Shown: piece by piece, positions 5,504 through 33,011 of the stretch | Numbering within the stretch: position 1 is the stretch's first letter | How the letters are laid out: each line of letters begins with the position of its first letter | DNA from: Thiohalospira halophila DSM 15071 | GTDB taxonomy: Bacteria > Pseudomonadota > Gammaproteobacteria > Thiohalospirales > Thiohalospiraceae | Length of the DNA stretch: 64,000 nucleotides | Assembly (NCBI RefSeq): GCF_900112605.1 | Contig: NZ_FOMJ01000002.1 | Location: forward strand, 124,001 to 188,000 | Direction: 5' to 3' | The notes under the pieces: generated by a model | What the model was told of the DNA's origin: nothing | The model's database searches: none | What the model saw: the letters and a program-made list of their open reading frames with translations, nothing else | Translations under genes and position numbers: made by a program

Positions 5504-5680
5504 GGGCAAGCATCACGTGCGGTGTGAGTGGAAGGGTAGTGTCACAAAGGGGCAACACCGCCCAGTTTCGGGCATAACGACCCGAAAGGAATTGATTTGG
5601 CGCATTCAACCCCGCGCTTGGTGCGCGAAAAATGAACTGCCATGCGGGACACAGGAAACCGGTCCCGATGTTGCTCATGC

Positions 5681-5710
5681 AGTATAAGACAAATTTTTCG
5701 GCTTGCCCAA
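5681..5710 (-). promoter_or_regulatory. Candidate sigma-70 promoter for proVWX
   Basis: On the minus strand TTGGGC (5705-5710) and TATACT (5681-5686) are separated by 18 bases in an AT-rich island that stands out from the GC-rich surroundings. The start point would fall near 5674, leaving a leader of about 170 bases before proV. The 387-base interval 5504-5890 holds this promoter and the repeat element at 5756-5876, and no gene that I can support. Confidence 0.5.
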
Positions 5711-5755
5711 ATTTTGGACCGGTCGGTCAGGAAGGTGGCCGACGTGGACCCGTTT

Positions 5756-5876
5756 CCGTCATTCCCGCGGAGGCGGGAATCTCGATGGCGGAGCCCCGGA
5801 TCGGATGGCTGCTCCGGGCGCTGCGGGCCTGTTCTCGGGGTTCCGGACTGGCGCTACGCGCCATCCGGAATGACGG
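5756..5876. repeat. 121-bp REP/MITE-like element with 10-bp terminal inverted repeats
   Basis: The element opens with ccgtcattcc (5756-5765) and closes with its exact inverse ggaatgacgg (5867-5876). Inside are two hairpins: attcccgc / gcgggaat (5761-5768 and 5773-5780), and ttccggactggcgc paired with gcgccatccggaa (5841-5870, one bulge). The right-hand ~53 bases, read on the minus strand, recur at 14490-14544 with about four differences. It sits between the proVWX promoter and ispH and encodes nothing. This structure suits a dispersed palindromic repeat family or a small non-autonomous element. Confidence 0.7.
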
Positions 5877-5890
5877 GGGCCAGGGTTGTT

Positions 5891-6868
5891 CTAGGGCTGT
5901 TCGGCGGCCTCGCCGCGCTGGAGGAGTTCCCGGGGCAGGGAGAAGACCACTTCCTCCTTCGGCCCCTCCAGGGTCTCCGGGGCCGTGGCGCCCCATTCCT
6001 GGAGCTGCTCGATGACGCCGTTCACCAGGACCTCCGGGGCGGAGGCGCCGGCGGTGACGCCGATGCGCTGGATGCCATCGAACCAGTCCCGCTGCAGGTC
6101 CTCGGCGCCGTCCACCAGCCAGGCCTGGCAGCCGGCGCGCTCGGCCACCTCGCGCAGGCGGTTGGAGTTGGAGCTGTTGGGCGAGCCCACCACCAGCACG
6201 GCATCGGCCTCCTCGGCCAGCCGCTTCACGGCATCCTGCCGGTTCTGGGTGGCGTAGCAGATGTCCTCCTTGCGCGGCGTCTCCACGGTGGGGAAGCGCT
6301 GGCGGATGGCGTCGACGATGGCGGCGGTATCATCCATGGAGAGCGTCGTCTGGGTAACAAAGGCGAGGCGGTCGGGGTCGGTCACCTCCAGGTTCTCGAC
6401 ATCCGCCGGCGTCTCCACCAGGTACATGCCGCCGTCGCCGCCCTCGCGCTCGTACTGGCCCAGGGTGCCCTCCACCTCGGGGTGGCCGGCGTGGCCGATG
6501 AGGAGGCATTCGCGCCCCTCCCGGGCGTAGCGCACCACCTCCAGGTGGACCTTGGTGACCAGGGGGCAGGTGGCGTCGAAGACCGTCAGGCCCCGCCGTT
6601 CCGCCTCCCGCCGGACGGCGGGGGAGACGCCGTGGGCGGAGAAGATCACCGTGGCGCCGTCGGGGACCTCGTCGAGCTCCTCCACGAAGCGGGCGCCCTT
6701 CTCCCGCAGACTGTCCACCACGTAGCGGTTGTGGACCACCTCGTGGCGGACCCAGATGGGGGCGCCGAAGGCGTCCAGGGCGCGGTCAACGATCTCGATG
6801 GCGCGGTCCACGCCGGCGCAGAAGCCGCGCGGGCTGGCCAGGAGGATGCGGGGGGCGGTTTCGGTCAT
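5891..6868 (-). CDS. ispH: 4-hydroxy-3-methylbut-2-enyl diphosphate reductase
   Basis: A 325-residue [4Fe-4S] enzyme of the last MEP-pathway step, making IPP and DMAPP from HMBPP in the cytoplasm. The three cluster cysteines are in [13 protein letters not shown] (Cys17), [12 protein letters not shown] and [11 protein letters not shown]. The substrate-binding motifs [32 protein letters not shown] and [11 protein letters not shown] are all present, and length matches the family. ATG at 6868 overlaps the fkpB stop by four bases (ATGA). The fkpB-ispH pairing is also seen in E. coli and other gammaproteobacteria. Confidence 0.97.
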
Positions 6869-7326
6869 GCGTCCTCCGGAGCCGGCTCCACCGCCACCAC
6901 CTCTACGTCGAAGGTGAGAGTGTGGCCGGCCAGGGGGTGGTTGAAGTCGACGCGGACCTGGTCTCCCTGGATGTCCAGGATGGTCCCCGGAACCTCCTCG
7001 CCGTTGGGGACACTGAAGCCGACGATGAGCCCCGGCTGGGGGTCGACGTCGTCGGGGAAGCGGTCGCGCTCGACGAAGTGGATGTTGCCCACGTCGGGGT
7101 AGCCGAAGCCCTCGCGCGGGTCGATCTGGAGGCATTCGCGATCCCCGGGGGCGAGGCCGCGCACCACCGCCTCCAGCCCCTCGATGAGGGTGCCGTCGCC
7201 CACGGTGAAGGTCAGTGGATCGAAGCCCTCGGTGGTCTCCACCACCGTGCCGTCCTCCAGGGCGAGGGTGTAGCGCAGCGTCGCCTGCATGCCGGGGGCG
7301 ACGGTGGTCGGGTTCTCTTCGGTCAC
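6865..7326 (-). CDS. fkpB: FKBP-type peptidyl-prolyl cis-trans isomerase (SlpA-like)
   Basis: A 153-residue cytoplasmic FKBP with the SlyD/SlpA architecture. The FKBP core ([45 protein letters not shown]) is split by the chaperone-type insert-in-flap ([25 protein letters not shown]) and closes with [22 protein letters not shown], the family signature. Unlike SlyD there is no His-rich tail. It starts at GTG 7326, supported by GGAGG seven bases upstream; the next ATG is 12 codons in and would cut the fold. It overlaps ispH by four bases, and the two are probably cotranscribed. Confidence 0.93.
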
Positions 7327-21776: not shown

Positions 21777-21857
21777 GTCACCAGACCGGTCCACCGGAGA
21801 GACTGTACACCGATTCATTCTTCCGCCGGTGGAGCGGTTGCAGGAGTGACGGTGACG

Positions 21858-23054
21858 ATGAAGATGGATGCTCAGGCAGAGGCGGCGAGCGCGCAGGTTC
21901 CCTTCTGGCGAATGGCCGCCATGCCCGTGCTGACCGGTGCGGTCGGGACGCTGCTCCTGGTCCTGGAGGAGCACTACGCGGTGGGAGCGCTGCCGCTGCT
22001 GCTGGGTCTCGTGGCAAGCGTCCCGCTCTATCGCTGGTGGTCCAACGCGCTGGCGGCACCGGCCGCGGAAGAGCAGGTTACACCTGCCGAGGAGAGTGTC
22101 CCCGTCGAGCACATGGCCTCCCTGGAGGAGGCCTGCATCGAGGTCAGCTCCATCGGCGGTCGCAACGTCGAGACCGCCCGCGACCAGACCGAAGAGGCCA
22201 TTACCGACCTCTCCCAGCGCTTCTCCCAGCTGGTGGACCGGCTCACGAACACTGTCGAGGCCTCGGAGAACGCCACCAGCGGCGAGCAGGGCCTGGTCCA
22301 GGCCTTCGAGGCCTCCCGCAGCGAACTCAACGAGATCGTCAGCAGCATGAAGGTGGCCATGGAGACCCGCGACACCATGCTGGAACAGGTGCGCGAACTC
22401 ACCGGCTACACCGAGGACCTCAAGGAGATGGCCACCTCCGTGGAGGACGTGGCCTCCCGCACCAACCTCCTGGCGCTGAACGCCGCCATCGAGGCGTCCC
22501 GGGCCGGCGAGGCGGGCCGCGGCTTCGCCGTGGTCGCCGACGAGGTCCGCAGCCTCTCCCAGCGCTCCGGTGAGGCGGGCTCCCGGATCAGTGACATGGT
22601 CAATCGGGTGGGCGATGCCATGCACCGGACGCTGGAGAACGCCGAGCTCTCCGCCAGTCGCGACGCCGACATGACCTGGCAGGCCGAGGAGACCATCCAG
22701 GGCGTGCTGGAGCGCCTGCGCGGCGTGGCCGACGGCCTCTCCGATTCCACCGGCCTGCTGCAGCAGGAGGGCCGGGGCATCCGCGACGAGATCGCCGAGA
22801 TCCTGGTCAGCCTGCAGTTCCAGGACCGCGTCAGCCAGATCCTGACGCAGGTGCGGGACTCCTTCGATGAATTCGGGACCGAGGTCTCCGACCGCGCCGA
22901 GCAGCGGCGCCTCTCGGGACGGTCCGAACCGGTGCACGCCGATGCCATCCGGCAGCGCCTGGAGCGCGGTTACACCACCGATGAACAGCGCCGGAACCAC
23001 TCGGCGAACGAGAGCGCCGCCGATGATGGCGGTGACGACATCGTCTTCTTCTGA
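21858..23054 (+). CDS. Receptor-like chemotaxis protein with MCP signalling hairpin and CheZ-like C-terminal motif
   Basis: A 398-residue protein with two short hydrophobic segments near the N-terminus (about 15-60) and no periplasmic sensor domain. Its centre holds a methyl-accepting signalling tip ([42 protein letters not shown], near residues 203-245). After a further helix comes [14 protein letters not shown], where Asp323 and Gln327 reproduce the D-x-x-x-Q of the CheZ phosphatase (FQDLTGQ). No methylation pentapeptide is obvious at the C-terminus. It is the first gene of the che cluster, directly before cheY. AGGAG at 21842-21846 precedes ATG 21858; GTG 21852 or 21846 are alternatives. 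Confidence 0.8.
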
Positions 23055-23073: not shown

Positions 23074-23439
23074 ATGAGCAAGACCATCCTTATCGTCGAC
23101 GATTCCGCATCCCTGCGGCAGGTGGTGGCCATCGCCCTCAAGGGGGCGGGCTACGAGGTCATCGAGGCCGGCGACGGCCAGCAGGGCCTGGACGCGCTCA
23201 AGGGCCAGAAGGTCCACCTCATCGTCAGCGACGTGAACATGCCGAACATGGACGGCCTGAGCATGGTGACGGAGATCAAGAAGGACCCGAACTACAAGTT
23301 CACGCCGGTGATTATGCTCACCACCGAGTCCCAGGAAGAGACCAAGAAGAAGGGCAAGGAGATCGGCGTCAAGGCCTGGATGGTGAAGCCGTTCAAGCCG
23401 GAGCAGATGCTCGACGCCGTCTCCAAGCTGGTGGGTTAG
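23074..23439 (+). CDS. cheY: CheY-type single-domain response regulator
   Basis: A 121-residue receiver domain without output domain. Acidic pair Asp9-Asp10, phospho-acceptor Asp53 (LIVSDVNMPNMDG), switch Thr in IMLTTESQEE and conserved Lys in WMVKPFKPEQ are all present. The KKKGKEIGVKAWMVKPFKPEQ pattern groups it with the CheY proteins of CheA-linked clusters. It carries the phosphoryl signal from CheA to a motor or other target. GGAGG precedes the ATG, 19 bases after the receptor-like gene. Confidence 0.94.
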   Translation: MSKTILIVDDSASLRQVVAIALKGAGYEVIEAGDGQQGLDALKGQKVHLIVSDVNMPNMDGLSMVTEIKKDPNYKFTPVIMLTTESQEETKKKGKEIGVKAWMVKPFKPEQMLDAVSKLVG

Positions 23440-23451
23440 GGGAGTCCGGCC

Positions 23452-23802
23452 GTGAATATCGAGGTATCGGAGGCCGCCGATGGCGGCTGCCGCCTGACGG
23501 TGGCGGGCGAGGTGAATATCTACGTCGCCGCCGATTTCCGGGCGGAAATGGACGCGAAGATGGCCGGCTGTTCCGCCCTGGAGATGGATCTCTCCGGCGT
23601 CAGCGACCTGGACACCACCGGCGTTCAGGTCCTGATGGCCGCCAAGCGCCAGTGCCAGGCCGAGGACCGGGAGCTGCGCCTGGTCGCGCACAGCCCGGCG
23701 GTGCTGGATGTCTTTGAACTCTACGGTCTGGACCGCTTCTTCGGTGATCCGCTGCTGCTTGCGGGCGAGGATGGGACGGTAACGGAGGATCGCCATGAGT
23801 GA
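23452..23802 (+). CDS. STAS-domain protein (anti-anti-sigma-like)
   Basis: A 116-residue single STAS domain. TVAGEVNIYVAADFRAEMDAKMAG and ALEMDLSGVSDLDTTGVQVLMAAKRQC show the SpoIIAA pattern, with Thr-Thr at the usual phosphorylated-Ser position (DLDTTGVQ). It starts at GTG 23452 behind GGGGAG and overlaps cheA by eight bases. Such proteins recur between cheY and cheA in environmental chemotaxis clusters; their partner is generally unknown. Possibly it tunes receptor or kinase assembly; this is inference. Confidence 0.85.
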   Translation: MNIEVSEAADGGCRLTVAGEVNIYVAADFRAEMDAKMAGCSALEMDLSGVSDLDTTGVQVLMAAKRQCQAEDRELRLVAHSPAVLDVFELYGLDRFFGDPLLLAGEDGTVTEDRHE

Positions 23803-26008
23803 CCGCCCACAGGACGCCTTCAACGCCGAGGCCACCGAACTCCTCCAGCAGATGGAGGATGGCCTCCTGGCACTGGAGGACGGCACCCAGGACCCGGAAC
23901 AGGTGAACACCCTCTTCCGGGCAGCCCACACCATCAAGGGGACGGCCGGGGTCTTCGGCTTCGACGCCGTGGAGCACTTCACCCACGTCGTCGAGAACCT
24001 CCTGGAACAGGCCCGCTCCGGCGAGCTGACCATCGGTCGCGACCTGGTCTCCCTGCTCCTGCGGGCACGGGACCACATGGCGGTGCTGGTGGCCGAGGCG
24101 GTGGAGGAGGCCGATCCCGATCCGGCGACCCCGGCCACCGGCGAGGCCCTGGCGGAGGAGCTGCGCGCCTACCTCGATGACGGGGGCGAGACCGATGTCG
24201 AACCGGAGGAGCCGGTGGCCGAGGGCTCGGTGGAGGTCATGAACGATGGCCACCCGGTCGCCTCCGAGGACTGGCACATCTCCCTGCGCTTCGAGCCGGA
24301 TGTCCTGCGCCACGGCATGGACCCCCTGGCCTTCCTGCGCTACCTGCGCAAGCTCGGGGAGATCGTCCATGTCACCACGCTGGATGATGCCCTGCCGGGG
24401 CTCGGCGAGCTGGACCCGGAGGTCCTCTATCTCGGCTTCGAGGTGGAGTTCCGCAGCGAGACCGCCGACAAGGCGGCCATCGAGGAGGTCTTCGAGTTCG
24501 TCGAGGACGACTGCGAACTCCACATCCTGCCGCCGCAGGCCTACATCCACAGCTACGCGGAGATGATTCGGGGCCTGCCCGAGGATGACCTGCGCATCGG
24601 CGAGATCCTGGTCCGCAGCGGGGCGCTTACCCGGCAAGAACTGGACGAGGCCCTGCGGGAGCAGGACAGCCGCCGGAGCGAGGGCGGCGGCAAGACCGCC
24701 CCCCTGGGCGAGGTCCTGGTTGACCAGCAGAGCGTCCACCAGGAGGTGGTGGACACCGCGGTGGAGAAGCAGACCCAGAACCGGGAGGCCCGGTCCACGG
24801 CCGCCAGCTCCCTGCGCGTGGATGCCGACAAGCTCGACGCCCTCATCAACCAGGTGGGGGAGCTTGTCATCGCCGGGGCCACCACCAACCTGCTGGCCCA
24901 GCAGTCCGGCGACGAGCAGCTGGGCGAGTCCATCTCGGTGATGGCCCGGCTGGTGGAGGAGATCCGGGACAGCTCCCTGCGCCTGCGCATGGTTCCCATC
25001 GGCGAGACCTTCAACCGCTTCCGGCGGGTGGTCCGCGACGTCAGCGCCGAGCTGGGCAAGGACATCGCGCTCACCATCGAGGGCGCCGATACCGAGCTGG
25101 ACAAGACCGTGGTCGAGCAGATCGGCGACCCCCTCATGCACCTGGTCCGTAACGCCATGGACCACGGTATCGAGAGCGCCGAACAGCGCCAGGCCGTGGG
25201 CAAGCACGCCCAGGGCCAGCTGCGGCTCAACGCCTACCACGAGTCCGGCAGCATCGTCATCGAGGTCGCCGACGACGGCGGCGGCCTGAACTCGGACAAG
25301 ATCCTGGCCAAGGCGCGGGACCGCGGGGTGGTCACTCCGGGCCAGGAGCTCTCCGAGGCGGAGATCCACCGGCTCATCTTCGAGCCCGGCTTCTCCACCG
25401 CCGGCGAGGTCACCAACCTCTCCGGCCGCGGGGTCGGCATGGACGTGGTGAAGAAGAACATCGAGTCCCTGCGCGGCAGCGTCGACGTGGAGAGCCGCTA
25501 CGGCGAGGGCTCCATCATCCGCATCCGGCTGCCGCTGACCCTGGCCATCGTCGACGGCTTCCTGGTTACCGTCGCCGGGGCCAGCTACGTCATCCCGCTG
25601 GATTCGGTGCTGGAGTGCGTCGAGCTAACCGACAACGACGCCCGGGATGCCGGCGAGCAGGGCTACATCAACCTGCGCGGCGAGGTGCTGCCCTTCATCC
25701 GCCTGCGGCGGATGTTCGAGCGGGATGCCGGTTACGCCGAGCGGGAGGCCATCGTCGTCGTCCAGATCAGCGGCCAGAAGGTCGGCCTGGTGGTGGACGA
25801 ACTCCTGGGCGAATTCCAGACCGTCATCAAGCCCCTGGGCCAGCTCTTCCGGGAGCTGGATGGCGTCAGCGGCGCCACCATCCTGGGCAGCGGGGAGGTC
25901 GCCATGATCCTCGACGTCCCCGGCCTTATCCACCGCGTCGACTGGAAGAACGGCGAGGGCCGACCCGGGCACGCCCCGGCGCTGGAAGCCGACCGTCACG
26001 ACCAATAA
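23795..26008 (+). CDS. cheA: Chemotaxis histidine kinase CheA with an MshEN-like insert
   Basis: A 737-residue kinase. The HPt domain carries phospho-acceptor His45 (RAAHTIKGTAGVFGF). An unusual middle region (about 165-330) replaces a standard P2. It contains a ferredoxin-like part (SLRFEPDVLRHGMDPLAFLRYL) and then two tandem 24-residue motifs at 267-290 (RIGEILVRSGALTRQELDEA, ending LREQ) and 303-326. Dimerisation (LDALINQVGELVIAGA), HATPase (HLVRNAMDHGIE, GRGVGMDVV) and CheW-like domains (ITVAGASYVIPLDSVLE) complete it. It overlaps the STAS gene by eight bases. It phosphorylates CheY and CheB. Confidence 0.95.
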   Translation: MSDRPQDAFNAEATELLQQMEDGLLALEDGTQDPEQVNTLFRAAHTIKGTAGVFGFDAVEHFTHVVENLLEQARSGELTIGRDLVSLLLRARDHMAVLVAEAVEEADPDPATPATGEALAEELRAYLDDGGETDVEPEEPVAEGSVEVMNDGHPVASEDWHISLRFEPDVLRHGMDPLAFLRYLRKLGEIVHVTTLDDALPGLGELDPEVLYLGFEVEFRSETADKAAIEEVFEFVEDDCELHILPPQAYIHSYAEMIRGLPEDDLRIGEILVRSGALTRQELDEALREQDSRRSEGGGKTAPLGEVLVDQQSVHQEVVDTAVEKQTQNREARSTAASSLRVDADKLDALINQVGELVIAGATTNLLAQQSGDEQLGESISVMARLVEEIRDSSLRLRMVPIGETFNRFRRVVRDVSAELGKDIALTIEGADTELDKTVVEQIGDPLMHLVRNAMDHGIESAEQRQAVGKHAQGQLRLNAYHESGSIVIEVADDGGGLNSDKILAKARDRGVVTPGQELSEAEIHRLIFEPGFSTAGEVTNLSGRGVGMDVVKKNIESLRGSVDVESRYGEGSIIRIRLPLTLAIVDGFLVTVAGASYVIPLDSVLECVELTDNDARDAGEQGYINLRGEVLPFIRLRRMFERDAGYAEREAIVVVQISGQKVGLVVDELLGEFQTVIKPLGQLFRELDGVSGATILGSGEVAMILDVPGLIHRVDWKNGEGRPGHAPALEADRHDQ

Positions 26009-26059: not shown

Positions 26060-28063
26060 ATGGTGCGTTTCAAGAATCTGTCCCTAGCCAAGAAGCTCTC
26101 CTTGGGCTTCGGTCTGGTCCTGGCGCTGCTGGCCATTATCAGCGTCGTGGCCTTCAACTCCCTCTCCACGAGCAGTGACGGCTTCGCGGAGTATCGCGAG
26201 ACCGCTCTGAGTACCAAGACCAGCGGTGAGGCCCAGGCCAACCTCCTGGAGGCGCGTATGGCCGCGCTCAAGTTCGTTAATGACGGTTCCGAAGCCGCCT
26301 CGGAGGCCGAGCACGAGCGCCACGAGGCGACCCTGGAGTTCCTGGACAAGGCCGAGCAGTACATCCACGACCCCGACCAGCAGGCGCGGCTGACCGAGGC
26401 CCGGGAGAAGACCCAGCAGTACGGTGAGGCCTTTGCCCAGGTCGAGGAGTACAAGGCGGAGCGCAACCGCCTCTTTGACGAGGTCCTCGCCGTGGAGGGC
26501 CCGATCATGGAGCAGCGCCTTACCGATATCATGCGCTCCGCCAAGGACGACGGCGACGCCAGTGCCGCCTACGTGGCCGGTCAGGCCATGCGCAATCTCC
26601 TGCTGGCGCGGCTCTATGTGGTGAAGTTCCTGGAGGATAACAGTCAGTCCGCCGTGGATCGGGTTAACAGCGAGTTCGGCGAGTTTGACCAGCGCATGGC
26701 CACCCTGGACCAGGAGCTCCAGAATCCCGAGCGGCGGCGGCTCATGCAGGAGGTGAACAACCTCAAGGACGTGTATACCCAGGCCTTTGACAAGACCGTG
26801 GAGACCATCCTGGCCCGCAACGAGGTCAAAGAGGGCACCATGGATGTGGTGGGCCCGGAGGTCGCCGACATCCTGGAAGATATCAAGATCGCCAACGGCA
26901 AGGTCCAGGACGAGATCGGCCCCCGCGTCCAGGGCGCCAACGAGCGCGCCATGGCCACCGTGCCGGTGGTGAGCCTGGTCGCCCTGGTGGTGGGCGTCTT
27001 CATGGCCTGGGTGATCACCCGGGCGGTGACCCGGCCGGTGGCGCGGGTGACCGAATTCGTCGAGCGCTTCGGCGAGGGCGATCTCACCGCCGACCTCACC
27101 GTGGACAGCGAGGACGAGGTGGGCCGGATGAGCCGCGCCCTGAGCAACGCCGTGGGCCGGGTCCGCAAGGCGCTGGTGGATGTCAGTCAGGCCACCTCGG
27201 CCCTGGCCTCCGCCTCCGAGGAGGTGAGCGCTACCTCCCAGAGCCTGAGCCAGGGCGCCACCGAGCAGGCCTCCTCCGTGGAGGAGACCAGCGCCACGGT
27301 GGAGCAGGCGCGTTCCTCCATCCAGCAGAACACCGAGAACGCCAAGTCCACCGACGAGATCGCCACCGGCGCCTCGAAGAAGGCCACCGAGGGCGGCGAG
27401 GCGGTGCGCGAGACCGTCACGGCCATGAACAACATCGCCGACAAGGTCACCCTCATCGAGGACATCGCCTACAAGACCAACCTCCTGGCGCTGAACGCCG
27501 CCATCGAGGCGGCCCGGGCCGGGGAGCACGGCAAGGGCTTCGCCGTGGTGGCCGAAGAGGTGCGCAAGCTCGCCGAGCGGAGCCAGTCCTCCGCCGGGGA
27601 GATCAGCGAGATGGCCGGCGAGAGCGTGAAGGTGGCCGAGCGGGCCGGCGGCCTCATCGACGAGGTGGTCCCGGAGATCCGCCGCACCGCCGACCTGGTG
27701 CAGGAGATCTCCGCCTCCTCGGAGGAGCAGGCCACCGGCGCCAACCAGCTCGCCCAGGCCATCGAGCAGCTGGACACCGTGGCCCAGCAGAACGCCTCCT
27801 CCTCGGAGGAGCTGGCCTCCACCTCGGAGGAGATGAGCTCCCAGGCCCAGCAGCTCCAGGAGACCGTGAGCTTCTTCGAGCTCGGCGAGGACAGTACCGA
27901 GGGGACGGCTGCTCGGGGCGGCACCAGCCGCGGGACCCAGCACGCCGGCCACCAGGGCTCGACCAACAGGGCCGGCCAGGCTTCGGCCTCTCACGGTGTC
28001 AGCAAGCCGGCTCCGGCCGAGGGCGAGGCGGTGGACGAGAGCGAGTTCCAGCGCTTCTCCTGA
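26060..28063 (+). CDS. Methyl-accepting chemotaxis protein (transmembrane chemoreceptor)
   Basis: A 667-residue receptor. TM1 (about 17-37, [20 protein letters not shown]) and TM2 (about 300-322, [17 protein letters not shown]) flank a ~260-residue helical periplasmic sensor of the HBM (helical bimodular) type. HAMP follows ([22 protein letters not shown]). The signalling tip reads [40 protein letters not shown]. The C-terminal tail is Gly/Ser/His rich. HBM receptors sense TCA intermediates or aromatic acids in characterised cases; the ligand here is unknown. GAGGAGG lies before the ATG. It sits between cheA and cheW and so serves this array. Confidence 0.94.
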
Positions 28064-28091: not shown

Positions 28092-28664
28092 ATGAGTGAG
28101 CAAGAACTGAGCCCGGCGACGGCGGGCGAGAGCGGGGCGGGGGCGCTGGCCCCCGTGGACTCCGCGGATTCAGGCGGGGAGGGGACCTCGGATGCCAACC
28201 AGTACCTGACCTTCCGCGTGGAGGGTCAGACCTACGGGGTCTCCATACTCCGGGTCAAGGAGATCATCGAGCACGGCTCCCTGACCCGCGTGCCGCTGAC
28301 CCCGGACTACATCCGGGGCGTGGTGAACCTGCGCGGCAAGGTGGTACCCATAGTCGACCTCGCCGTGCGCCTGGGCCGGCCATCGGAGCCGGCAGGCAAG
28401 CGGACCTGCAATATTATTGTTGAGATGGCCGAGAGTGCCGGGGGCACCATGGACCTGGGCTTCATGGTCAGTGCCATCGACGAGGTGGTGGGGCTGCCGG
28501 CGGAGGATATCGAGGCCTCCCCCAGCTTCGGGGCCGATGTGCCGGCGGATTTCATCGCCGGCATGGGGCGCCGGGAGAACGGCTTCATCACGCTGCTGGA
28601 CCTGGATGTGGTGCTCTCCGTCGACGAACTGTCCCGCTTTCGTGCCGCCCTGAATAGCGGTTGA
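28092..28664 (+). CDS. cheW: CheW adaptor (first copy)
   Basis: A 190-residue CheW-like SH3 protein with a ~35-residue acidic, low-complexity N-terminal extension. The core starts QYLTFRVEGQTYGVSILRVKEIIEH and contains VPLTPDYIRGVVNLRGKVVPIVDLAVRLG and GLPAEDIEASPSFGAD. It couples CheA to receptors in the baseplate. It is 28 bases after the receptor gene. Its closest relative in the window is the second CheW at 32403. Confidence 0.95.
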   Translation: MSEQELSPATAGESGAGALAPVDSADSGGEGTSDANQYLTFRVEGQTYGVSILRVKEIIEHGSLTRVPLTPDYIRGVVNLRGKVVPIVDLAVRLGRPSEPAGKRTCNIIVEMAESAGGTMDLGFMVSAIDEVVGLPAEDIEASPSFGADVPADFIAGMGRRENGFITLLDLDVVLSVDELSRFRAALNSG

Positions 28665-28678
28665 ACGGGGGGCATGTG

Positions 28679-29269
28679 ATGGAGACCAGTCTCGAGCTGG
28701 TCAGCGCCGCCCATGAGCGCCTGAAGGAGGTGATGCGGGCGGTCCGGCAGCTCTACATGCGCGCCGTCAACGCCATGCTTAACGCCCGCCGCGTGGGGGT
28801 GCAGGCAGCCGGCTACCAGGCCGTGACCCTGGAGCTGCGCCGCTTCAGTCAGCAGATCGACAGCTCGGCGGACGAACTCCAGGCCCGGATCCGGGAGCTG
28901 GTCTACTGCGGGGCCGAGCGCCGCCGCCAGTTCCGGCGTCTCCGGCGGCTGGAACAGGGGGCCGACAGGGCGGATTCGGGGGGCCGGGAGGCGGCCCGGA
29001 AAGGGATCGAGGGCCTGCAACAGCGGCTGCAGCAGCAGGACGACGACATTGAACGTCTGGTGCGGGAGGTGCAGGGCATTCGGGTCCGGATTGGTCGGCT
29101 CGCGGAGACTGGTCGTAATCTGGGTCTGATGCTGCGGACCGAGGCCGTGGTGAACGAGGCGCTGGCCGATGGCATCGGCGACGAGGTCAATGAACTCATG
29201 GATCGCGTGAATCGCGATGTGGACGCCATCGGCGGGCACATGGAACGTCTGAGCGAGGCCGGCGAATGA
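28679..29269 (+). CDS. Cytoplasmic coiled-coil protein with a degenerate receptor-tip motif
   Basis: A 196-residue, almost fully helical protein with no membrane segment. Around residues 30-60, AVNAMLNARRVGVQAAGYQAVTLELRRFS aligns with the MCP hairpin tip [31 protein letters not shown], keeping the Asn-Ala, the Gly and the E-L-R spacing. The remainder is two long heptad-rich helices (about 100-150 and 155-195). I know of no named family for it. It lies between cheW and the di-iron sensor gene and overlaps the latter by four bases. A role as a short CheW/CheA-binding partner of the neighbouring sensor is inferred. Confidence 0.6.
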   Translation: METSLELVSAAHERLKEVMRAVRQLYMRAVNAMLNARRVGVQAAGYQAVTLELRRFSQQIDSSADELQARIRELVYCGAERRRQFRRLRRLEQGADRADSGGREAARKGIEGLQQRLQQQDDDIERLVREVQGIRVRIGRLAETGRNLGLMLRTEAVVNEALADGIGDEVNELMDRVNRDVDAIGGHMERLSEAGE

Positions 29270-30006
29270 AACAGTCCGTAGTACTCTACGAGAACGGCGA
29301 CCACCGCTGGCTGGTCCTGGCCCGGGATCCGGAACGGCCGGACTACGTCATCGATACCAATGAATACGTGGTGGAATCCGGCGGCGACGCCCTGATGACC
29401 GACCCCGGCGGCATGGAGATCTTCCCCGCGGTCTTCTCCGCGGTGAGCGAGCGCGTGGACCCCAAGCGGATCGGGCGGCTCTTCGCCTCCCACCAGGACC
29501 CGGACATCATCTCCTCCCTGGGGCTGTGGATGGACTTCAATCCCGGGATCCGCTGCTACCTGAGCCGCCTCTGGGCCACCTTCGTGCCCCACTTCGGCGG
29601 CGATGACACCACCTTCCACCTGCTGGACGACGCCGGCGAGCCCATCCAGGTGGGCAGCCAGACTCTGGAGGCGATGCCGGCGCACTACCTCCACTCCTCG
29701 GGGAACTTCCACCTCCACGACCCCCGGGCGAAGCTCCTGTTCACCGGGGACGTGGGGGCGGCCATGCTGCCGCCGGAGGAGGACGAGGTCTTCGTCTCCG
29801 ATTTCGACCGCCACATCCGCCACGCGGAGGGCTTCCACCGCCGCTGGATGGGGTCGAACACCGCCAAGCGTGACTGGTGCGAGCGGGCGGCGAAGCTCGA
29901 CCTGGACCTGCTCTGCCCCCAGCACGGGGCCATCTATCAGGGAGACGACGTCATGCGCTTCATCAACTGGTTCGATGAGCTGGAAGTGGGGCGGACCTGG
30001 CAATGA
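29266..30006 (+). CDS. Oxygen-binding di-iron protein (ODP) homologue, metallo-beta-lactamase fold
   Basis: A 246-residue soluble protein with the flavodiiron-type metallo-beta-lactamase fold and no flavodoxin domain. Candidate ligands are His76, Asp78 and Asp80 (FASHQDPDI), His140 and His143 (MPAHYLHS), Asp162 (LFTGDVGA) and a C-terminal His in LLCPQHGAIYQGDD. ODP of Treponema denticola, encoded beside a receptor, binds O2 at a di-iron site and modulates CheA. Position inside this che operon between the coiled-coil protein and cheR argues for the same job. It overlaps both neighbours by four bases. Confidence 0.85.
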   Translation: MKQSVVLYENGDHRWLVLARDPERPDYVIDTNEYVVESGGDALMTDPGGMEIFPAVFSAVSERVDPKRIGRLFASHQDPDIISSLGLWMDFNPGIRCYLSRLWATFVPHFGGDDTTFHLLDDAGEPIQVGSQTLEAMPAHYLHSSGNFHLHDPRAKLLFTGDVGAAMLPPEEDEVFVSDFDRHIRHAEGFHRRWMGSNTAKRDWCERAAKLDLDLLCPQHGAIYQGDDVMRFINWFDELEVGRTWQ

Positions 30007-30842
30007 CCACCAACAGCCCGGCGGCCAGGCTGGAGATCAGCGATCGGGAGTTCAGCCAGCTCAGTGCCATCATGCAGGAGCAGGCCGGAATCCATCTCCC
30101 GCCGGGGAAGAAGGCCCTGGTGGTGGGGCGGCTGAGCAAGCGCCTGCGCCACCACGGGCTCAAGAGCTTCACCGAGTACCACCGCTTCGTCACCCGGGAG
30201 GATGCGGACGGCTCGGAGCTCCAGACCATGGTGGACCTGCTGACCACCAACGAGACCTATTTCTTCCGGGAGGCGGACCACTTCGACACCCTGCGCAACC
30301 GGATCCTGCCGGAGCTGGATCAGTCCCGGGAGCTGAAGTTCTGGAGCGCCGCCTGCTCCTCCGGCGAGGAGGTCTACACCCTCGCCATGGTGCTGGCCGA
30401 CGCCCTGGGGGAGAAGGCGGCCTGGTCCATCTTCGGCAGCGACATCAGTACCGAGGTAGTGGCCCGGGCCCGGCGCGCGGTCTACCCCATGGGGGCGGCC
30501 GAGAAGATCCCGCGGGAGTACCTGCGCCGGTTCTGCCTGGAGGGGACCGGCAGCCAGGAGGGGCGCTTCCTGGTGGACCGGAGCCTGCGGGAGCGGGCGC
30601 GCTTCGATACCGTAAACCTGAACGCCGCCGACTGGCGCGCGCCGGGGGGGCGGTTCGACGTGATCTTCCTGCGCAACATCATGATCTACTTCAACGCCGC
30701 CACCAAGCAGCAGCTGGCGGACCGGCTGGCGGGGGCGTTGAATCCGGGGGGCTGGCTCATCGTCGGCCATTCGGAGACCCTCAACGGCGTCAGCGACCGT
30801 TTCGAGTGCATCAAGCCCTCGGTCTACCGGAGGAAGGCATGA
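30003..30842 (+). CDS. cheR: Chemoreceptor glutamate methyltransferase
   Basis: A 279-residue SAM-dependent methyltransferase. The N-terminal helical domain (FSQLSAIMQEQAGIHLPPGKKALVVGRLSKRLR) and LLTTNETYFFREADHFDTL are family hallmarks. The SAM pocket is ELKFWSAACSSGEEVYTLAMVL, and VIFLRNIMIYFNAATKQQL closes the core. It methylates receptor glutamates for adaptation. ATGA overlaps on both sides link it to the ODP and cheD genes. Confidence 0.96.
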   Translation: MTTNSPAARLEISDREFSQLSAIMQEQAGIHLPPGKKALVVGRLSKRLRHHGLKSFTEYHRFVTREDADGSELQTMVDLLTTNETYFFREADHFDTLRNRILPELDQSRELKFWSAACSSGEEVYTLAMVLADALGEKAAWSIFGSDISTEVVARARRAVYPMGAAEKIPREYLRRFCLEGTGSQEGRFLVDRSLRERARFDTVNLNAADWRAPGGRFDVIFLRNIMIYFNAATKQQLADRLAGALNPGGWLIVGHSETLNGVSDRFECIKPSVYRRKA

Positions 30843-31330
30843 ATCGGTCGGACTGCATCTACCTGCGCCCCGGGGAACTCCACTTCGGCTCGGCGCCGGG
30901 CCGGATCCGGACCCTGCTGGGTTCCTGCGTGGCGGCCACGCTCTGGCATCCCCGGCGCCGGATGGGCGGGATGTGCCACGTGGTCCTCCCGGAGCATCCG
31001 GAGGGCACCTGCGACGACCGCTATGCCGACTGCGTCATGCGCAGCTTCATGGAGGCCCTGGCCCGCGGCGCGGGGCAACCGAAGGAGTACCAGGTCGGGG
31101 TCTTCGGCGGTGGCCACATGTTCCCCGGCATCGCCGAGGGCAAGGGGCCGGCCATCGGCGACCGCAACGCCGAGTGCATGCAGGAGCTCCTGCGCAGGAA
31201 CGGCTTTCGTATCGCTCGCCTGGAGGTGGGGGATTACCTCTACCGCCACGTGGAGCTGGATCTGGCGACCGGGGAGCTGGAGGTGACGGCCACCTCGGTG
31301 AATGCGACGAACAACGCAGGGGGGCAGTGA
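30839..31330 (+). CDS. cheD: Chemoreceptor glutamine deamidase CheD
   Basis: A 163-residue CheD. The catalytic Cys is in TLLGSCVAATLWHPRRRMGGMCHVVLP and the paired His in CHVV; VGVFGGGHMFPG and LRRNGFRIARLEVGDYLYRHVELD complete the fold. It deamidates receptor Gln to Glu and often works with CheC or CheY-P; no cheC is present. ATG at 30839 lies in GGAGGAAGGCATGA, overlapping cheR. Confidence 0.95.
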   Translation: MNRSDCIYLRPGELHFGSAPGRIRTLLGSCVAATLWHPRRRMGGMCHVVLPEHPEGTCDDRYADCVMRSFMEALARGAGQPKEYQVGVFGGGHMFPGIAEGKGPAIGDRNAECMQELLRRNGFRIARLEVGDYLYRHVELDLATGELEVTATSVNATNNAGGQ

Positions 31331-32406
31331 TGGCGGGCAAGCCCAGGGTTCTCGTGGTGGACGACTCGGCGGTGATCCGGCAGGTGCTCTCCAAGATCAT
31401 CGAGGCCGACCCGGACCTGGAACTCCTGGGCGTTGCCGGGGATCCCATCCTGGCCCGGCGCCGCATGGAGAAGACCTGGCCGGACGTCATCGTGCTGGAC
31501 GTGGAAATGCCCCGGATGGACGGCCTGACCTTCCTGCGGGAGATCATGGCCGAGCATCCGACGCCGGTGGTGATGTGCTCCACCCTGACCCAGCATGGTG
31601 CCGATACCACCATGCAGGCCCTCGCCGCCGGTGCGGTGGAGGCCATCGGCAAGCCGAAGGTCGATCCGCGCGGCGGGCTGCAGGAGGCCTCCGCCCCCTT
31701 CCTGGCGGCGGTGAAGGCGGCGGCCGGGGCCCAGGTGAAGCGGCAGGCCGGGCCGGCGGCGGCCCGCTCGGCGGTGCCCTCGACCCCGGCTCCTGCCACC
31801 CGGCAGCAGGCCGGCACCGGCCGGATCCTCGCCCTGGGCGCCTCCACTGGCGGCACCAATGCCCTGGAGACCGTCCTCTCGGCCCTGCCGGCCACCGCGC
31901 CGGGGCTGGTCATCGTCCAGCACATGCCGGCGGGCTTCACTACCGCCTTTGCCGCGCGGCTGGACCGGGCCTCGGCCCTGGAGGTCCGGGAGGCAGCGGA
32001 CGGCGACCAGGTGCGTCCCGGTCGCGCGCTCATCGCCCCCGGCGATCGCCACATGCGAATCAAGCGGCGGGGGCCCGGCTATCAGGTCACGGTGGGGGAT
32101 GGTCCCCTGGTCAGCCGTCACCGGCCGTCGGTGGATGTCCTCTTCCAGTCCGTGGCCAAGGAGGCGCGTGACCAGGCCATGGGCGTCATCATGACCGGCA
32201 TGGGGGACGACGGGGTCAACGGCCTGGACGAGATGCGCCGGGCGGGCGCCCCCACCCTGGCCCAGGACGAGGCCACCTGCGTCGTCTACGGCATGCCGCG
32301 GGAGGCGGTGAACCGGGGGGCGGCGGTGGAGACCGTGCCCCTGACCGGGATCCCGGAACGGCTTCTCGCCTTTGCCATGGCCAATGGATCCCGGACCACA
32401 ACATGA
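31330..32406 (+). CDS. cheB: Protein-glutamate methylesterase CheB
   Basis: A 358-residue two-domain enzyme. The receiver (1-120) has the DD pair (VLVVDDSAVIRQ) and phospho-Asp in VIVLDVEMPRMDG. A Pro/Ala linker (about 135-160) is followed by the esterase domain with catalytic Ser in LGASTGGTNAL, His in VIVQHMPAGFT and Asp in VIMTGMGDDGVNG. It demethylates receptors opposite to CheR. It overlaps cheD by one base and the second cheW by four. Confidence 0.96.
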   Translation: MAGKPRVLVVDDSAVIRQVLSKIIEADPDLELLGVAGDPILARRRMEKTWPDVIVLDVEMPRMDGLTFLREIMAEHPTPVVMCSTLTQHGADTTMQALAAGAVEAIGKPKVDPRGGLQEASAPFLAAVKAAAGAQVKRQAGPAAARSAVPSTPAPATRQQAGTGRILALGASTGGTNALETVLSALPATAPGLVIVQHMPAGFTTAFAARLDRASALEVREAADGDQVRPGRALIAPGDRHMRIKRRGPGYQVTVGDGPLVSRHRPSVDVLFQSVAKEARDQAMGVIMTGMGDDGVNGLDEMRRAGAPTLAQDEATCVVYGMPREAVNRGAAVETVPLTGIPERLLAFAMANGSRTTT

Positions 32407-33011
32407 ACCCGGCACCCGAATCAGTACAACCAATCAGTGAGGCGGCCATGAACGAGCTTGCAGCGTCGGTCCCCGGCACAGAGGCGACGGGCAACCAGGA
32501 GGCGAAGTACCTCGCCGTGAAACTCGGTGATGATGCCTACGGCATCACCATCATGCGGGTGAAGGAGATCATCGAGTACAGCCACGTGACCCCGGTGCCC
32601 CTGATGCCCGAATCCATCCGCGGGGCCATCAATCTCCGGGGCCACATGGTTCCCATCGTGGACCTGGCCCGGCGGCTGGGGGTGGGAGAGACGGCCATCA
32701 CCCGCTGGACCTGCGTGGTCATCGTCGAGGTGCGGGTGGGCGAGCAGTGCCTGGACGTGGGCCTGACCGCGGATGCGGTCAGCCGGGTCTGGGATGTCTC
32801 CCCGTTGGATATCGAGGCCGCCCCGAACTTCGGCGGCCAGATCCGGACCGACTTCATCGAGGGCATGGCCAAGGTCGGCGAGGACGGCTTCGTCATCCTC
32901 CTGGATATCGACCGCATGCTCTCCATGGAGGACGTGGAGCAGCTCGGCCGGATGGCGGGCCAGGTGGATTCAGCCTCCATCCCGCCGGCCAGTGAGGAAG
33001 AGTCCGGCTGA
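32403..33011 (+). CDS. cheW: CheW adaptor (second copy)
   Basis: A 202-residue CheW protein, last gene of the cluster. The core (KYLAVKLGDDAYGITIMRVKEIIEYSHVTPVPLMPESIRGAINLRG, SPLDIEAAPNFGGQIRTDFI) is close to the first copy, so the pair probably arose by duplication. ATG 32403 overlaps cheB by four bases; an ATG 15 codons in with GAGG before it is an alternative. It converges with parA, with 7 bases between stops. Confidence 0.93.
   Translation: MNPAPESVQPISEAAMNELAASVPGTEATGNQEAKYLAVKLGDDAYGITIMRVKEIIEYSHVTPVPLMPESIRGAINLRGHMVPIVDLARRLGVGETAITRWTCVVIVEVRVGEQCLDVGLTADAVSRVWDVSPLDIEAAPNFGGQIRTDFIEGMAKVGEDGFVILLDIDRMLSMEDVEQLGRMAGQVDSASIPPASEEESG

Follow-up and report, generated by a model that had tools for sequence, protein, structure and literature searches.

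A sensorless, receptor-shaped protein of F8-type chemotaxis clusters is a probable receptor-tethered CheY phosphatase with a CheZ-like site

The window analyzed here, a stretch of 64,000 nucleotides from Thiohalospira halophila DSM 15071, contains a chemotaxis cluster whose first gene encodes a receptor-shaped protein of 398 residues. The features of this protein and of the genes that follow it are:

21858-23054, + strand: receptor-shaped protein with CheZ-like tail, 398 residues (translation)
21903-22052, + strand: two predicted transmembrane helices, residues 16-37 and 42-65 (sequence; AlphaFold2 helices)
22104-22916, + strand: MCP-type antiparallel helical hairpin, residues 83-353 (Pfam MCPsignal; AlphaFold2 helices 83-216 and 221-353)
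22812-22844, + strand: [11 protein letters not shown], putative phosphatase site, residues 319-329 (alignment to CheZ; conservation)
22971-23000, + strand: conserved [10 protein letters not shown] element, residues 372-381 (conservation; common to stand-alone relatives)
23034-23051, + strand: acidic C-terminal tail ending DDIVFF, proposed CheY docking peptide (conservation; disorder in AlphaFold2)
23074-23439, + strand: cheY, proposed substrate (cluster survey; conserved residues)
23452-23802, + strand: STAS-domain protein (Pfam STAS_2, E 1.1e-17)
23795-26008, + strand: cheA (Pfam scan)
26060-28063, + strand: cluster MCP with HAMP and 4HB sensor (Pfam scan)
28092-28664, + strand: cheW (Pfam scan)
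28661-29269: short degenerate MCP-like protein, 202 residues (MCPsignal E 3e-4, below cut-off)
29266-30006: ODP-family di-iron gene (oxygen/iron sensor type), between cheW and cheR
30003-30842, + strand: cheR (Pfam scan)
30839-31330, + strand: cheD (sequence; BLAST reference for relatives)
31330-32406, + strand: cheB (sequence)
32403-33011, + strand: second cheW-like gene (sequence)

For the first gene an alternative GTG start is possible at 21846. The original prediction had placed this gene immediately upstream of cheY, and the cheY start (MSKTILIVDD) at 23074 indeed lies only 19 bp past its stop. The same prediction held that the cluster has no cheZ, cheX or cheC. This is correct for the cluster, where none of the three was found, and for cheC and cheX it extends to the whole genome; one canonical cheZ (C1:787714-788349), however, adjoins another cheY elsewhere in the genome. 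Two further observations concern the neighboring genes. The degenerate MCP-like gene sits directly before the ODP gene, a pair seen again in several relatives, and the ODP di-iron gene also occurs in Gallionella, Chromatiales and other clusters. Residues 267-326 of the F8 CheA (24593-24772) form an extra segment resembling an MshE-type cyclic di-GMP-binding domain, with 35.6 bits against NF053729 (cut-off 38); the main text of a survey of CheA domain architectures does not mention such a segment (PMC10782961).

The MCP signalling domain (PF00015, E 1.8e-27) is the sole confident Pfam domain of the 398-residue protein, and Pfam scans of this protein and of family members found no ligand-binding, periplasmic sensor or HAMP domain, in agreement with the earlier description of an MCP hairpin devoid of a sensor. 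The family members carry the annotation methyl-accepting chemotaxis proteins. An AlphaFold2 model of the monomer (pLDDT 77.5, pTM 0.44) comprises two membrane helices, an antiparallel hairpin that is long like those of MCPs (residues 83-216 and 221-353) and two short helices containing the YTTxEQRxNH element, followed by a disordered acidic tail. Its closest fold match in the PDB is a chemoreceptor (2ch7). The hairpin tip at about residues 203-237 ([29 protein letters not shown]) is canonical and invariant in the family. In the model, D323 lies about 100 residues, or roughly 15 nm of helix, away from this tip towards the membrane end. D323 and Q327 are located on the helix face opposite to the hydrophobic stripe F321/V325/I328/V332 and are therefore unlikely to be core residues.

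The putative phosphatase site lies in the C-terminal helix where it had been predicted, with Asp323 encoded by 22824-22826 and Gln327 by 22836-22838. Across 57 non-redundant family sequences Q320, F321, Q322, D323, Q327 and F398 are 100% conserved and R324, Y372 and F397 98%, whereas most remaining positions on the same helix face as D323 and Q327 are variable. The element at residues 372-381 is likewise well preserved in these sequences (E376 and H381 95% each, in addition to Y372). Both D and Q are present in 109/109 proteins, all of which end in Phe and nearly all in FF. This C-terminal FF was considered as a CheR-binding pentapeptide and rejected, as its second position misfits x-[FWY]-x-x-[FWY]. 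The bare motif FQDxxxQ is not rare, a corresponding DNA pattern matching 8 times in the 2.7-Mb genome, and a plain motif scan was dropped as evidence for being too permissive.

The resemblance to CheZ was evaluated with profiles. Alignment of the C-terminal parts of the family with CheZ in hhalign yielded an ungapped local match of 64 columns (P 2.5e-4), in which D323 falls on Asp143 and Q327 on Gln147 of CheZ, and ordinary MCPs gave no such match. The score was reached by none of 150 column shuffles and by 6 of 150 shuffles of 7-column blocks. When the eight motif residues were masked, P fell to 0.06 with the register unchanged. A profile search of PDB sequences returned E. coli CheZ (1kmi chain Z, residues 131-167) in sixth place (E 0.36), again with D143/Q147 in register with D323/Q327, so that both searches bear out the residue correspondence proposed in the original prediction. 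The Pfam CheZ model (PF04344) matched residues 267-334 of the window protein at E 0.086 with 13.2 bits compared to a cut-off of 30.7. Allowing E values up to 1, it weakly matched 13/24 family members (best E 1.6e-4); in a scan of 24 ordinary MCPs, the 25 families listed do not include it. As the cut-off is not reached, we do not file the protein as a member of the CheZ family, even though we think that it works like CheZ. A profile of the tail (residues 276-398) found 25/27 CheZ proteins at E<0.01 but 0/11 ordinary MCP tails and 0/540 shuffled CheZ sequences; with a longer tail profile in which the motif was masked, 1/27 CheZ remained, near background. The profile comparison proposed earlier as a check thus supports the D143/Q147 register and the recognition of CheZ proteins, but its significance is lost once the motif is masked, and a CheZ homology extending past the motif is weak. 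Since most of the signal stems from the eight-residue motif, common descent and convergence are inseparable here. Judged by these comparisons, the tail is more similar to CheZ than to an MCP, chiefly through its active-site motif.

A 73-residue query around the motif had matches in 31 of 369 genomes of the class and in 29 after two non-members were removed, namely a flagellar-type protein (L053) and a true CheZ (G297, E 3.2e-4). A scan of genome contigs raised the size of the family to at least 536 loci in reference genomes; a search for viral copies found none. Among the best 80 of these 536 relatives the gene precedes cheY in an F8-type cluster in all 80 loci; within the extent of each contig, the arrangement is gene-cheY-STAS-cheA-MCP-cheW-(tMCP-ODP)-cheR-cheD-cheB. 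BLAST detected no cheZ in these 80 loci, although a distant one could escape such a search, CheZ being diverged. The F8 class is known from P. syringae pv. tomato (PMC11253619) and Methylomicrobium alcaliphilum (PMC7184735). The cluster probably belongs to this class, of which a 34H MCP and a cheR with a pentapeptide-binding insertion are markers. It also occurs in genomes of the Pseudomonas syringae group, which has an F8 cluster that includes the cheR PSPTO_0910 and the MCP PSPTO_0912 (PMC11253619). One record of actinobacterial origin, Amorphoplanes auranticolor (L128, NZ_BOQL01000044.1), has a Pseudomonas-like F8 cluster, which is probably a contamination of that assembly.

As the first searches contained the motif, its conservation could be circular. 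We therefore searched the same 369 genomes with the neighboring STAS protein and read the surroundings of the matches. In this motif-blind test the gene was present in 20 of 24 STAS-cheA clusters with cheY, and all 20 copies kept D and Q; one of them (L196) is strongly diverged (LQFQDITRQQ) and lies at the far end of its cluster. The gene was missing from the other four clusters with cheY and from all five STAS-cheA clusters without cheY, from which we conclude that it travels with cheY and not with the kinase. A CheZ is also encoded in 27 of the 29 gene-bearing genomes, so that the gene is an addition to CheZ rather than a genome-wide replacement.

The tail is not confined to receptors. A profile built from the final 90 residues (QFQDxxxQ, Y-T-T-x-E-R-x-x-H and the acidic tail with its final F) matched in 114 of 398 genomes of the phylum, and several of the matched proteins have no MCP hairpin, which argues for the tail as a functional module and not a structural receptor feature. 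The relatives include a protein of 163 residues (L238) encoded 21 bp upstream of a cheY, whose tail has D and Q; proteins of 190-231 residues with FYDKLTQ or FYDRLSQ and the tail DDIELF; proteins of about 580 residues that have Q[FY]DDIxxQ together with a second, degenerate copy; and proteins of 1,200-1,700 residues (e.g. about 1,240) that adjoin cheY and cheA and contain the module one or more times. D and Q are kept in at least one copy of every relative, an observation that is partly circular as the search profile held the motif. About half of 20 loci inspected fall in che clusters. The stand-alone modules scanned received no confident Pfam or NCBIfam name; the NCBIfam model of CheZ gave weak matches in two module proteins (E 0.008 and 0.004).

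Some of these relatives deserve separate mention. Three unnamed proteins of 190-231 residues (L240, about 6200-6770; L241, about 5560-6150; L242, about 6300-7000) are encoded away from che genes and combine FQFYDxLxQRL and YT/SLxxERKMF with the tail DDIELF; they are candidate stand-alone CheY phosphatases. The proteins of about 580 residues at L245, L248, L249, L255 and L257 have one intact Q[FY]DDIxxQ copy, and their degenerate second copy retains YTMxSER and a DDIELF-type tail. A protein of 1,715 residues (L244:1799-7373), encoded immediately ahead of cheY and cheA, carries the module in three or more copies and is adjoined by an ORF of 121 residues with another copy, a possible tandem array of CheY-binding or phosphatase modules. 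Tentatively, FQDxxxQ, Y[TSV][MT]xxER and an acidic Phe-ended tail might together define an unannotated superfamily of CheY phosphatases in receptor-fused, stand-alone, two-copy and tandem forms, of which the receptor-fused form might be gated by the signalling state of the array.

With regard to the proposed substrate, the F8 CheY keeps the equivalents of D57, N59, T87, E89 and K109 in 52/52 sequences and has Trp at position 106, where E. coli CheY has Tyr. Position 92 is mostly Glu or Asp and not Lys as in E. coli CheY, which counts against a CheZ-like mode of action. A charge swap between the residue following the Asp (Arg324) and Glu92 of CheY was considered and discarded, since 15 pairs revealed no clear covariation. 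In the F8 system of P. syringae, CheA1 was not seen to interact with CheY1, and cheA1 and cheY1 mutants had opposite biofilm traits (PMC11253619).

A cluster without cheZ, together with a receptor tail that carries the invariant Asp/Gln pair of CheZ beside cheY, suggests that the receptor is a CheY phosphatase, and probably the built-in one of this whole class of systems. The reading as a receptor-tethered phosphatase of phosphorylated CheY, raised as a possibility in the original prediction, is the best supported one: D and Q are invariant and in the register of CheZ, the adjacency to cheY is strict, the gene is absent where cheY is absent, and hairpin-free tails occur near cheY. We consider it likely that the protein acts like CheZ while standing outside the Pfam CheZ family, its activity being inferred from sequence. 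In CheZ, Gln147 enters the active site of CheY and orients a water molecule, and the acidic residue of CheZ-type phosphatases forms a salt bridge with the active-site lysine of the receiver (PMC3035606). By analogy, Gln327 would enter the active site of CheY and orient the attacking water, and Asp323 would pair with a CheY lysine. The membrane-anchored, sensorless hairpin would join the F8 chemoreceptor array and expose the phosphatase site outwards on its C-terminal helix, while the Phe-ended acidic tail would dock phosphorylated CheY. CheY phosphorylated by CheA at the baseplate could then lose its phosphoryl group within the same array, near the membrane and about 15 nm away from the tip. 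Tethering to the array would put phosphatase and kinase together and provide the F8 system with a phosphatase of its own, apart from the flagellar CheY/CheZ pair. Still, this CheY might also be a substrate of the canonical CheZ that the genome encodes elsewhere.

Alternatively, the tail could bind CheY without catalysis, for recruitment, sequestration or as a phosphate sink, with D and Q merely aiding the contact. Adjacency to cheY and co-absence with it fit binding as well as catalysis, and RapH can block phosphotransfer by binding even in variants that lack the catalytic Gln (PMC3035606). A docking surface, however, would not require exactly the DxxxQ pair, in CheZ register and 100% invariant, and D and Q persist across architectures with little else in common; we therefore regard docking without catalysis as unlikely. 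The canonical MCP fold and tip and the presence of cheR, cheD and cheB in the same operon would also suit an ordinary accessory chemoreceptor, with QFQDxxxQ as a structural part of the coiled coil near the membrane or as the place where CheD, CheR or CheB dock. This explanation appears somewhat more doubtful still, given that proteins lacking an MCP hairpin carry the tail too, that CheZ is not among the families listed for the 24 ordinary MCPs and that D323/Q327 point away from the hydrophobic stripe. That a short motif resembles CheZ by chance might be suspected from the eight genomic occurrences of the pattern, but this is highly improbable and already contradicted by its invariance in the family, including the 20/20 clusters found without use of the motif. 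The resemblance, in a segment that CheZ profiles also single out, is thus not fortuitous.

With CheZ (PF04344) the protein shares FQDxxxQ on the second of two hairpin helices, where it is predicted to face outwards, an ungapped alignment across 37-64 residues, a linker with an acidic Phe-ended tail, and the pairing with cheY. It differs from CheZ by scoring below the Pfam cut-off, by its fused transmembrane helices and MCP hairpin, by the extra YTTxEQRxxH element, and by its location in F8 clusters rather than in a flagellar cheY-cheZ pair; its tail ends in I-x-F-F instead of DDLLSSLGF, with only the acidity and the final Phe alike. With MCPs (PF00015) it has in common the canonical hairpin tip, the helical hairpin and two membrane helices, but it lacks a ligand-binding or HAMP domain and possesses a C-terminal helix with FQDxxxQ and a conserved C-terminal tail. 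Epsilon-proteobacterial CheZ is soluble and not fused to a receptor, and CheC, CheX and FliY have a different fold with an ExxN motif. The published CheZ logo AXXFQ-DXXXQ includes the FQ that precedes the DxxxQ pair here, and in CheZ two hairpins form a four-helix bundle, to which a linker and a separate C-terminal CheY-binding helix or segment are added (PMC7750401), an arrangement with which the hairpin topology of our model is compatible. DxxxQ is also found in HP0170 of H. pylori, described in a passage citing Lertsethtakarn and Ottemann 2010 as a remote, highly diverged CheZ orthologue with phosphatase function (PMC7750401). CheC, CheX and FliY likewise reach into the active site of CheY with two side chains, one an acid and the other an amide (PMC3035606).

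In the open-licence literature we found neither a report of a receptor-fused CheY phosphatase nor a paper that assigns a phosphatase to F8 systems, which occur widely in Pseudomonas and in further beta- and gammaproteobacteria. Given the annotation of family members as methyl-accepting chemotaxis proteins, a signal terminator is probably being counted among the receptors. The stand-alone relatives could fill gaps in other lineages where a phosphatase is missing. If gating by the array holds true, receptors would control the removal of phosphorylated CheY as well as its production.
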